From positions 44,182-108,181 of the forward strand of contig JANXXU010000013.1 of assembly GCA_025350465.1 (NCBI GenBank): a stretch of 64,000 nt of DNA, in the 5' to 3' direction. The notes under the pieces were generated by a model. It ran no database searches. It was not told the DNA's origin and was given only the letters and a program-made list of their open reading frames with translations. The position numbers and the translations under genes were made by a program. The DNA is from Alphaproteobacteria bacterium (GTDB lineage: Bacteria; Pseudomonadota; Alphaproteobacteria; Micropepsales; Micropepsaceae). Below are positions 21,230-24,982 of the stretch, in pieces. The first letter of the stretch is position 1. Each line of letters starts with the position of its first letter.

Positions 21230-21237
21230 AAAAATTG
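21230..21237. repeat. Left target-site duplication AAAAATTG
   Basis: Identical to 24975-24982. Confidence 0.9.
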
Positions 21238-21257
21238 GGTAGTGGGTCAGTTTGAAT
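21238..21257 (+). repeat. Left terminal inverted repeat
   Basis: GGTAGTGGGTCAGTTTGAAT. Confidence 0.93.
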
Positions 21258-21303
21258 CCTAGGGTGGCTTCGACCTTCAGCTGAGCCGTGCCATATTATA
21301 CGC

Positions 21304-21525
21304 ATGGCAAAGACTCATTCCAAAAGACCGCGCGACCCCAATCAACTGGCCAAGCACATCATCGGGATCGCAACGGGAGAGGTCGAGGAACCCGATCCTA
21401 AGGCCAACGCAGGCCAGCGGAAGGGTGGAAAGCGTGGTGGCGCTGCTCGCGCCAAGAGCCTCACGCCCCAGCAGAAATCCGAAATCGCCCGGGCTGCAGC
21501 GGCCGCCCGTTGGAAGAAGAGCTAG
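21304..21525 (+). CDS. Small basic histone-H1-like/hypothetical protein (transposon cargo)
   Basis: 73 aa, K/R/A-rich 'GQRKGGKRGGAARAKSLTPQQKSEIARAAAAARWKKS'. Confidence 0.7.
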   Translation: MAKTHSKRPRDPNQLAKHIIGIATGEVEEPDPKANAGQRKGGKRGGAARAKSLTPQQKSEIARAAAAARWKKS

Positions 21526-22013
21526 GCTACATCGTCCTCGTCGTCGTCCATCAGGTCAGCAGCGCGCCGCTCCGCACAGTCCTCAGTGAAGTCCGTGAAG
21601 AAGTTCAACTGCGGGTCCTTGGGGAACTGGAAGTTCATATGGTCCGCGTCACAGAGCGCGCGATACACTTTGTCGGCGACACGGTCGCGACGCTGACGCA
21701 TTGCTTTCTGACGCAGCTGCGGGGTGCCACCGTGATCTGTGTCAAACCAGAGCGGTATCTGATGCCCGTTGTCGGTGGTGACATAACACTGCTTCGCGCG
21801 GTAGGTGATTCCGTTTTGGTCAGTTCGCATCGCTTGGCGAAGCGCGGTAGTCACTTGCTTACGCAAGAGCCTGACAATGTCCTGAGGGTATGGCGCGAGC
21901 TTTTTATGGGCCATTGCCCAGCTGACAAAGTCAGTAGGATCATTTGCGTCTTTGCCGGTGTGCGCCTCCCACTCATCCCAGACGCGGAGCACCTGTTCGT
22001 TGAAGTTAGCCAT
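21522..22013 (-). CDS. Hypothetical protein, third gene of higB-higA operon (transposon cargo)
   Basis: 'MANFNEQVLRVWDEWEAHTGKDANDPTDFVSWAM...'; RBS-like AGGAG before ATG, 11 bp after the higA-like stop. Confidence 0.65.
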   Translation of the reverse strand: MANFNEQVLRVWDEWEAHTGKDANDPTDFVSWAMAHKKLAPYPQDIVRLLRKQVTTALRQAMRTDQNGITYRAKQCYVTTDNGHQIPLWFDTDHGGTPQLRQKAMRQRRDRVADKVYRALCDADHMNFQFPKDPQLNFFTDFTEDCAERRAADLMDDDEDDVA

Positions 22014-22024
22014 CAGTCCGTCTC

Positions 22025-23170
22025 CTAGAGTCCAGTCGGGGCCATGTGCCCCCATCCGTCAGTGAATTCCGCATCAAGCAGGTATTTGCGAATGCTCGTT
22101 TGATACTTTCGCAACCAGGCATATTTCTGCGTCTTGTGCTGTACCTGCCCAACGACAATGGCCGGATGAACTTCTAGCCGCGCTGCAAATGACAATACGT
22201 CCTGCTCTGAAATGAACGGGGCTTTCCTAAGAAGGAATGAGTTGAGCTGTTGACTTGGAATGCAAAACTCTGTGGCGGCGGCATTGGCCAATAGCTCGCA
22301 CTCCGGCAAATCCGCGTCGGCATTTAGGCTGGTGGCGTCAATCTCATCGACTGGTGCAAAGGACGTATCTCTGCCGTCACCGTTGAGGACATGTTCGCAT
22401 TCATGCCGCAGGACAAAGGCAAAGTTGTCCAGCCGATCGAGACGAAGCGTAAGCCCAATTGCTGGCTGACCGTCGATCCACACACATACGCCGTCGATCT
22501 TTGACCCTGGCAATGATTCGACCAGCACAAACCGGACACCACAGTTGCGCAGCATCTGCGGGATGCGCCCAAGGTCATCCTTGTCCTGCAAGTGCGCTTT
22601 GATCGTTGGCAAAGTCTTTCTGAGCGCTTCCTCGGAATAGAGCGGCGCCCTCATCAGCGAGGCCAACTTCATTACACGATGAAGCCATGCGTATTGAATT
22701 GCCGAGACTGTCTCGTAGCCCGTCTTCTTCGCGGCATGCGCGGTAATCTCTCCGCTTCCGATAAACGGAATGTCGTTGATGCTATTCTTGCCGAAGAACC
22801 GCAGCATTTGCAGATCAAGCAAGGCGGGGTCGGTCTCCTCGATCCAGCCGCGCTGGATCATCTCACGAACTGGAAACACGCTTTGCCAAGTAGCGCGGGT
22901 CCTAACGCCGGGGTCGGCAGGTTTCGCGCGTTGTAGGTCGTAGAGCTTCTGCAAATTCATAAAGAAGTCAGGCGATACGTTGAACGCATCGGAGAGGCTA
23001 TGAGCCATCTCAGGCGTAATTGCGCGCTTGCCAGTGAGCAACGGGCTAAGCTGCTCCGGTGCAATACCTAGAATGTACGCGAGGTCCACCTGCTTCCAGC
23101 CGCGCGCTTCCATCTCTTCAAGAAGGAAGGTGCCGGGGTGATCAACGGTCGATGTTGTGGCCTTGGTCAT
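22025..23170 (-). CDS. HigA-type XRE antitoxin fused to ImmA/IrrE metallopeptidase domain (transposon cargo)
   Basis: 'HPGTFLLEEMEARGWKQVDLAYILGIAPEQLSPLLTGKRAITPEMAHSLSDAFN' HTH plus 'RHECEHVL' zinc motif. Confidence 0.88.
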   Translation of the reverse strand: MTKATTSTVDHPGTFLLEEMEARGWKQVDLAYILGIAPEQLSPLLTGKRAITPEMAHSLSDAFNVSPDFFMNLQKLYDLQRAKPADPGVRTRATWQSVFPVREMIQRGWIEETDPALLDLQMLRFFGKNSINDIPFIGSGEITAHAAKKTGYETVSAIQYAWLHRVMKLASLMRAPLYSEEALRKTLPTIKAHLQDKDDLGRIPQMLRNCGVRFVLVESLPGSKIDGVCVWIDGQPAIGLTLRLDRLDNFAFVLRHECEHVLNGDGRDTSFAPVDEIDATSLNADADLPECELLANAAATEFCIPSQQLNSFLLRKAPFISEQDVLSFAARLEVHPAIVVGQVQHKTQKYAWLRKYQTSIRKYLLDAEFTDGWGHMAPTGL

Positions 23171-23466
23171 CAGTGGTAGTCCTCGAATGCAATAATGGTG
23201 ATCGTTGTTTGCTTGTCCTTCTCGTCAACCGTGAACACCAACCGCCATTGATCGTTGAGCCGAATTGAGCATTGCCCGGCTCGATCCCCCTTGAGTTTTT
23301 CGTAGTGCAGGCTTTTCCAATTTCTCAAATCCCGTTCGTCCAATGCGGCCCTCAGGAGGGTGAGCTTCCGCCGCGCGGACTTAATGACCGCTACGGGCAG
23401 GCGAAGCTTTGCCGCCTCCTCGGTCTCGATCTTCCCTAGGTCCGAATCGGCAAACACCACTTCCAT
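23170..23466 (-). CDS. HigB/RelE-superfamily toxin (transposon cargo)
   Basis: 'FADSDLGKIETEEAAKLRLPVAVIKSARRKLTLLRAALDERDLRNWKSLHYEKLKGDRAGQCSIRLNDQWRLVFTV'; stop overlaps higA-like start (ATGA). Confidence 0.9.
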   Translation of the reverse strand: MEVVFADSDLGKIETEEAAKLRLPVAVIKSARRKLTLLRAALDERDLRNWKSLHYEKLKGDRAGQCSIRLNDQWRLVFTVDEKDKQTTITIIAFEDYH

Positions 23467-23540
23467 GGGGGCTCGGTATACGTTGGAGGTATATGGCCGT
23501 CAAGAGAAATTAATTCAATGCATTAATCTGACCCTTATGC

Positions 23541-23569
23541 TTGACTAAAGTTGAGTGAATCCCTAGATT
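23541..23569 (+). promoter_or_regulatory. Predicted sigma70 promoter of transposase, TSS at or next to ATG (leaderless)
   Basis: TTGACT-N17-TAGATT; ATG begins 7 nt after the -10 element. Confidence 0.6.
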
Positions 23570-23575
23570 GAGGGC

Positions 23576-24424
23576 ATGAACCGGCTGAGCAAAGAGGACC
23601 GCGCCCGCATCCTGCACCTCCTTTGCGAGGGGTCCTCGATCCGCGCCATCACGCGCGTGACGGGGGCCAGCAAAAACACGGTGGCCAAGCTGCTGGGGGA
23701 CGCCGGGTGCGCCGTCGCCGCCTTCCAGGACGAGGCCCTGCGTAACCTCAAATGCCAGCGCGTGCAGGTTGACGAAATTTGGTCGTTCGTCGGCAGCAAA
23801 GAGAAAAACACAAGCGCGGAGAAGAAGGCGCAGGGCAATGGCGACTGCTGGACGTGGACCGCATTGTGCGCTGACACGAAGCTGCTGCTGTCTTGGTGGG
23901 TTGGCAGCCGCGATGCTGACAGCGGCAACGCTTTCATGGCTGACGTTGCCTCGCGCCTCGCCAATCGCGTGCAGCTGACCTCTGATGGTCACAAGGTCTA
24001 TTTGCAGGCCGTCGATAAAGCGTTTGGTGATAACATCGATTTCGCGATGCTCGTGAAAATGTACGGCAAAGCGTTTGAGGGACCGGCGCGCTATAGCCCG
24101 CCTGAGTGCATCGGCTGCAAACGCACGAAGATCACCGGCAACCCCGACAAGGACCACGTTTCGACCAGCTACGTTGAGCGCAGCAATCTCACAATCCGGA
24201 TGCATTCGCGGCGCTTTACGCGACTTACCAATGCGTTTTCAAAGAAGATCGAGAACCACATTCACGCAGTGGCGCTGCACTGCATGTATTACAATTTTGT
24301 ACGCATTCATAAGACTTTGCGTGTGACCCCCGCAATGGCGGCCGGTGTAACTCAGCGGCTATGGGAAGTATCCGATATTGTAGCTCTTGTTGAAGCGGCC
24401 GAAGCAAAGGGACTCGCTGCATAA
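23576..24424 (+). CDS. IS1-family-like DDE transposase
   Basis: HTH '[40 protein letters not shown]'; DDE-like 'VDEIWSF', 'TSDGHKVY', '[31 protein letters not shown]'. Confidence 0.88.
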
Positions 24425-24478
24425 GCGTCAAAGGTTTATGAGTCTTGCCCCCTGATTCGCAGGGGTTAGGAGTCTAAA

Positions 24479-24649
24479 ATGACGAAAGTAGCGCCTTTTC
24501 ATTCAGCGAAACCGAACACGCCGAATGTCTATCATGACAATAACAAGTGTACCGAGGGCAATAACATAGAAACGCAGTACCTGCGGCAAGGCACTGGCGG
24601 GCGCCCGCGCTGCCAACACTGCGACCGGCTTGCTACGCAGGGGCAGTGA
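24479..24649 (+). CDS. 56-aa small conserved-type protein (transposon cargo; absent from ORF track)
   Basis: MTKVAPFHSAKPNTPNVYHDNNKCTEGNNIETQYLRQGTGGRPRCQHCDRLATQGQ; RBS-like 'ggttaggag'; CxxC motif. Confidence 0.6.
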   Translation: MTKVAPFHSAKPNTPNVYHDNNKCTEGNNIETQYLRQGTGGRPRCQHCDRLATQGQ

Positions 24650-24956
24650 CTAAACCTTGGTGGAAAACCATCTCCCACCAAGGTCCTTGAAGCTGGCTAT
24701 CCGTGACGCCATACACCCGCTGTATGCGGCGCACGGGTAGCCCATGCTCCATCGCGATGGCGACCGCCTTTAAGCCAGCCCATGCGTTCCCGTGAAATTT
24801 GATTGTAGGTTCGTCGAAGGCGTGACCCTTGCCGCCCTCACATGATTCAAATGTTTCAACACCATCGCGGCGGAGTATCAGCACCGCGCGGCGAATACCG
24901 GGATCAAGTTCAAGATCGACTTCAGGCGCAAAAGCCTCTAGCGCAGGATCAGTCAT
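24633..24956 (-). CDS. Phage/plasmid-type hypothetical protein (transposon cargo)
   Basis: 'ILRRDGVETFESCEGGKGHAFDEPTIKFHGNAWAGLKAVAIAMEHGLPV'; start codon overlaps right IR. Confidence 0.6.
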   Translation of the reverse strand: MTDPALEAFAPEVDLELDPGIRRAVLILRRDGVETFESCEGGKGHAFDEPTIKFHGNAWAGLKAVAIAMEHGLPVRRIQRVYGVTDSQLQGPWWEMVFHQGLVTAPA

Positions 24957-24974
24957 TCAAACTGACCCACTACC
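24955..24974 (-). repeat. Right terminal inverted repeat
   Basis: ATTCAAACTGACCCACTACC = reverse complement of left IR. Confidence 0.93.
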
Positions 24975-24982
24975 AAAAATTG
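24975..24982. repeat. Right target-site duplication AAAAATTG
   Basis: Identical to 21230-21237. Confidence 0.9.

Follow-up and report, generated by a model that had tools for sequence, protein, structure and literature searches.

The window analysed here, a 64,000-nucleotide stretch of the alphaproteobacterial contig JANXXU010000013.1, carries a three-gene operon derived from a toxin-antitoxin (TA) system as cargo of a small IS1-family transposon. All three genes lie on the minus strand. The first (23466-23170) encodes a HigB-like toxin of 98 aa (PF05015, 8.5e-11). The second (22025-23170) encodes HigA-ImmA, a 381-aa fusion of a HigA-type helix-turn-helix (HTH) protein and an ImmA/IrrE zinc peptidase, annotated as antitoxin, repressor and peptidase and matched by TIGR02607, PF06114 and the PADLOC model PD-Lambda-2_B. 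The third (21522-22013) encodes a 163-aa protein of an undescribed family, for which no family match was found in Pfam, PADLOC or PHROG. Coordinates and lengths, the HECEH motif of HigA-ImmA and the 11-nt gap between the end of higA-immA and the third gene, which has its own ribosome-binding site (AGGAG ahead of the ATG), are as reported in a preliminary description of the locus. In contrast, higB and higA-immA do not overlap by ATGA, as proposed there, but share a single nucleotide (TGATG). The operon is more than a chance arrangement, as the same gene order is found again in dozens of diverged loci.

The position of a HigB-family gene (PF05015) 5' of a HigA-family gene (TIGR02607) is the layout of type II HigBA modules. 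Residues 11-83 of HigA-ImmA match TIGR02607 HigA (3.9e-16), residues 215-336 match PF06114 Peptidase_M78 (5.8e-5), and the N-terminal domain of the predicted structure (predicted local distance difference test score, pLDDT, 89) matches HigA structures. HECEH corresponds to residues 256-260. The HExxH motif and the downstream glutamate ligand of M78 peptidases (H256, E257, H260 and E292) are invariant in 81 HigA-ImmA sequences. The window HigB keeps D96 and H98 of the C-terminal DYH, as well as R69, N71, Q73 and R75, all of which are conserved, active-site-like positions.

The operon is enclosed in an intact element of 3,737 bp (21238-24974), delimited by perfect 20-bp terminal inverted repeats (GGTAGTGGGTCAGTTTGAAT at 21238-21257, plus strand, and its counterpart at 24955-24974, minus strand) and flanked by two copies of an 8-bp target-site duplication, AAAAATTG (21230-21237 and 24975-24982). 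An IS1-family-like transposase gene (23576-24424, plus strand, 282 aa) is divergent from the operon; its product scores above the cutoff of PF03400 and matches NF033558 with E=1e-18, yet below the cutoff of that model. A transposase of the IS1 type, terminal inverted repeats and an 8-bp duplication (8-9 bp are expected) are the features of the IS1 family. The other core gene of the transposon, the KGG (‘histone H1’-like) gene (21304-21525, plus strand, 73 aa), is convergent with the operon and overlaps the third gene by 4 nt. The corresponding empty site, CTGCTGTCAAAAATTGGCAGGGCC, is found uninterrupted, with a single AAAAATTG, in a genome of the same genus (L096); this evidence comes mostly from the right side, as only about 16 nt align left of the junction. 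The inverted repeats, the duplication and the empty site confirm the earlier view that the operon is transposon cargo.

Relatives of the third protein were gathered from plasmids, phages, viral contigs and 78 genome loci, and duplicates were then removed. The first alignments were too diverse, and pattern scans were built on a subset of the sequences. The preliminary description had named, as one result that would refute its proposal, that homologues of the third gene never co-occur with higBA-immA. The opposite was observed: HigA-ImmA is encoded directly upstream of the third gene in 79/79 loci with enough sequence, and the gap between the two genes is 9-13 nt in most of them. Since the third protein was the sole starting point of the search, this linkage is not built in. 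A HigB gene accompanies the pair in 71 of 78 loci. The loci are distributed among Alpha-, Beta- and Gammaproteobacteria, Nitrospirota, Nitrospinota, Acidobacteriota and other taxa. The third gene is under purifying selection, dN/dS (the ratio of nonsynonymous to synonymous divergence) being well below 1 in near relatives (e.g., dN 0.014 vs dS 0.587). An AlphaFold2 model of the protein (mean pLDDT 92; predicted TM-score, pTM, 0.72) predicts, in order, three helices, a beta hairpin region, a long helix and a final helix. Neither a Foldseek search of the model against PDB (E<=0.001) nor a single-protein scan of viral sequences returned a match. The best viral fold match, the unnamed A0A220NS53 (E=0.015, TM 0.44), was discarded as too weak. 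Weak Pfam, PADLOC and PHROG matches of single members, such as SEA, GCN5L1 and Csx1, were judged to be due to chance, since no one family recurs widely. A SecB-like chaperone was also rejected, with no SecB match obtained by sequence or fold.

The three-gene module also occurs without the transposon on phages and prophages, as in Achromobacter phage CF418P1 (L006) and in viral contigs L010-L016, and third-gene operons are also seen near restriction or Shedu genes. The Thauera plasmid pTX1 (L007) has intact HigB and HigA-ImmA genes but a third gene that is either split or missing in part. Standalone operons of the family include those of Zoogloea and Lysobacter. Two-gene HigB/HigA-ImmA modules in Micrococcus and Rhodococcus plasmids (L009 and L138) lie in a ubiquitin-like neighbourhood, beside multiubiquitin and ThiF/E1-like genes.

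At least 17 other loci feature like ends and exact 8-bp duplications around the transposase, HigA-ImmA, third and KGG genes. In a survey centred on Alphaproteobacteria, relatives of the transposase were identified in 31 of 386 genomes of the class; most of the elements examined share the type of ends and the exact 8-bp duplications, and include a KGG gene. They form a family of compact elements (2.4-4.2 kb; L125, L127, L128, L129, L139, L140 and L171-L205) with ends GGTAGTG(GG/TC)TCAGTTTGAA, and their cargo slot lies between the transposase and KGG genes. Six surveyed elements, three of them lacking a HigB match, carry HigA-ImmA and the third gene; the cargo of the remainder is different. A scan of 39 such other cargo proteins identified both partners of the RosmerTA system, with five HTH-ImmA proteins of the RmrA type and two RmrT matches; further matches are to SocA/Panacea, Schlafen AlbA_2, ClpP-like (SDH) proteases, P63C and Bro-N, and the rest belong to unknown families. 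A RES/Xre pair in Acidiphilium was rejected as cargo, as it lies outside the inverted repeats. A KGG homologue is found in 29 of 31 transposase-bearing loci. KGG probably assists transposition or binds DNA, because it co-varies with the transposase (r=0.68) and is retained with most kinds of cargo. Two additional open reading frames (ORFs) are located at the right end of the window element. A small CxxC ORF (24478-24648, plus strand, 56 aa) is extra cargo; its homologue lies at the far end of element L191, which suggests that cargo is also accommodated at a second site close to the ends of the elements. The other ORF (24633-24956, minus strand, 107 aa) has its start codon within the right inverted repeat, and a search for its relatives found none.

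HigA-ImmA is a full-length homologue of PD-Lambda-2_B (PADLOC PDLC03982, E=2.3e-44), a model matched by 74/74 family members. PD-lambda-2 has been shown experimentally to be an abortive-infection system, the third gene of which is needed for defence, not for neutralisation (Vassallo et al. 2022, PMC9519451). The window operon has the same order of toxin, HigA-peptidase and third gene, the latter directly downstream. In contrast, the PD-lambda-2 toxin belongs to PF09907 (HigB_toxin) instead of PF05015, and the PADLOC PD-Lambda-2_A toxin model finds no match in the window operon. The third gene of PD-lambda-2 encodes a P4 beta-like Beta_protein (PF14350) of about 360 aa, to which the window protein, less than half as long, is unrelated. 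Moreover, window-type operons are transposon-borne in about 40% of loci. Since the toxin families differ and the third genes are unrelated, the window operon is a relative that shares the PD-lambda-2 hub, and is not to be filed as PD-lambda-2. Makarova et al. 2009 (PMC2701414) predicted three-component systems in which a RelE-type toxin lies beside a COG2856-Xre (zincin) fusion, and proposed that the protease cuts the repressor/antitoxin; the portion of that description considered here includes neither a third gene of the window family nor a transposon platform. In RosmerTA, an HTH-ImmA antitoxin likewise serves a defence TA system, and the system is cargo of the same IS1/KGG transposon family, but the toxin and the HTH-ImmA lineage are different: the window protein matches RmrA at 6.8e-5 over the HTH only, and PADLOC detects no RmrT in the window operon. 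Toxin-antitoxin-chaperone systems (CmdTAC and HigBAC) also have three genes, a HigB/HigA pair in HigBAC and a third gene involved in the phage response. Unlike them, the window operon encodes a third protein with no SecB match by sequence or fold and an antitoxin in which a peptidase takes the place of the ChAD tail. Fusions of HigA and a peptidase next to toxins of the RelE type had already been described in 2009 (PMC2701414) and 2022 (PMC9519451); what the third gene is, and the transposon platform, for which no description was found in the papers searched, are new.

We regard the operon, with a probability of about 0.6, as a TA-derived three-gene module of PD-lambda-2 architecture that is interchangeable cargo of an IS1-family transposon with a transposase and KGG core, and that responds to phage. 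By analogy with relatives, HigA-ImmA would bind HigB through its HTH-containing antitoxin domain and would repress the operon, and possibly also the transposase gene divergent from it, by way of a palindrome that lies about 60 nt upstream of higB. Upon phage infection or DNA stress, the third protein may act with HigA-ImmA to turn the zinc peptidase on or off. The antitoxin would then be cleaved or released, and the freed toxin, which may be the peptidase itself or HigB, the latter acting as a translation-dependent mRNA nuclease, would halt growth and abort the infection. The defence role put forward in the preliminary description is supported by analogy only, through the homology of HigA-ImmA to PD-Lambda-2_B. 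A candidate HigA operator, ATTAATGCATTGAATTAAT (23509-23527), is located in the 109-bp divergent intergenic region between higB and the transposase gene; its score is reached by 3.3% of shuffles. In standalone loci, a palindrome is found near -60 of higB in 77% of cases vs 3.4% of shuffles.

Several observations weigh against this interpretation. The window's operator candidate is an imperfect palindrome, and the palindrome signal drops from 77% in standalone loci to 23% in transposon copies. HigB is missing from 7 of 78 loci. The window third protein is among the most diverged members of its family (median identity to relatives about 26%, vs 45% overall) and is devoid of several nearly invariant residues (E60, E61, Y62 and H75), suggesting that this copy of the gene may be drifting. 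In PD-lambda-2, it is the HigA-peptidase that is toxic, and the HigB-like A protein is the antidote (PMC9519451); the usual toxin/antitoxin polarity may consequently be reversed in the window system.

Co-evolution of the three proteins was assessed by partial correlations of protein distances over 65 three-gene loci. Distances of the third protein and HigA-ImmA are correlated when HigB is controlled (partial r 0.70), as are those of HigB and HigA-ImmA when the third protein is controlled (0.60); HigB and the third protein are not when HigA-ImmA is controlled (-0.01). HigA-ImmA is therefore the hub, and the third protein co-evolves with HigA-ImmA rather than with HigB. Within transposons, HigA-ImmA and the third protein (0.84) and the transposase and KGG (0.68) form two correlation blocks, with cross-links of 0.26-0.51. 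On a quick tree of HigA-ImmA, the absence of HigB requires three changes, always in transposons: seven HigB-less loci, all transposon-borne, form one supported clade, and two further losses are found besides. In HigB-less loci, the gap from the transposase to the HigA-ImmA start is 2-135 nt, vs a median of 439 nt in those with HigB, and accordingly leaves no HigB-sized gene. The third gene and HExxH are retained in all of them. One HigB-less copy is located on a Mesorhizobium loti plasmid. These data would fit a system in which the HigA-ImmA peptidase and the third protein are the functional core, as an effector or sensor pair, HigB being a dispensable neutraliser or accessory toxin and the HigB-less copies a two-gene system. 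We consider this somewhat unlikely, as the presence of HigB with conserved active-site-like positions in most loci indicates that it matters in most of the family, and the HigB-less copies could be decaying passengers.

The operon might alternatively serve mainly to regulate transposition, with HigA bound between higB and the divergent transposase gene and its stress-triggered loss to the peptidase switching the transposase on. In ICEBs1, ImmA acts on ImmR in a like manner. The divergent layout, the palindrome in the intergenic region and the persistence of HigA-ImmA beside the transposase in HigB-less copies are all consistent with such a role. It is nevertheless rather doubtful, since the transposase co-varies more with KGG (0.68) than with HigA-ImmA (0.51), and palindromes are weaker in transposon copies.

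A classical addiction module, stabilising the transposon by killing cells that lose the element, was part of the preliminary description, and is suggested by TA genes being carried on a mobile element whose ends are intact. Type II TA modules are known within Tn3-family transposons (PMC7157771); the window element differs from these in its IS1-type transposase, 8-bp duplications, lack of a resolvase, three-gene module and swappable cargo. The stabilisation proposal is not supported. Among 74 loci with enough flank, transposase and KGG are both present in 29, one alone in 4 and neither in 41, the latter including prophages. Unrelated cargo is found in the same transposon lineage, and the loss of HigB about three times inside transposons, while the peptidase and the third gene stayed, weakens a pure addiction role, which we deem quite improbable. 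That the operon is a plain PD-lambda-2 member with a diverged PD-lambda-2C as third gene can practically be dismissed: although operon position is the same and the B proteins are homologous, the profile comparison gives a probability of 0.5%, no PADLOC C match is found in 73 members or in the window genome, PD-lambda-2C is a Pfam Beta_protein more than twice as long, the well-predicted AlphaFold2 model matches no known fold, and the toxin families differ too.

Two linked novelties are proposed jointly, and tentatively, at slightly less than even odds: that IS1-type/KGG transposons are swappable carriers of small modules for TA and defence, both within and outside Alphaproteobacteria, and that, in one cargo lineage, the real working pair consists of the peptidase-antitoxin and the third protein, which represents a new family, with HigB dispensable. 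No report of IS1-type cargo transposons with TA or defence modules was found in a literature search of partial coverage, most subscription papers lying outside it. The analysis divides PD-lambda-2-type systems into a conserved HigA-peptidase hub, an exchangeable toxin and an exchangeable third component, and the role of the third gene as sensor, activator or effector becomes testable by swapping. The third protein, confidently modelled and without a relative among known folds, would make a good structural target. With HigB-less copies, a toxic role of the peptidase in place of HigB, for which there is a hint from E. coli, can be tested directly. Finally, the transposon family shows that even a very small element of the IS1 type is able to move modules for TA and defence, which may be a route for their spread outside large defence islands.
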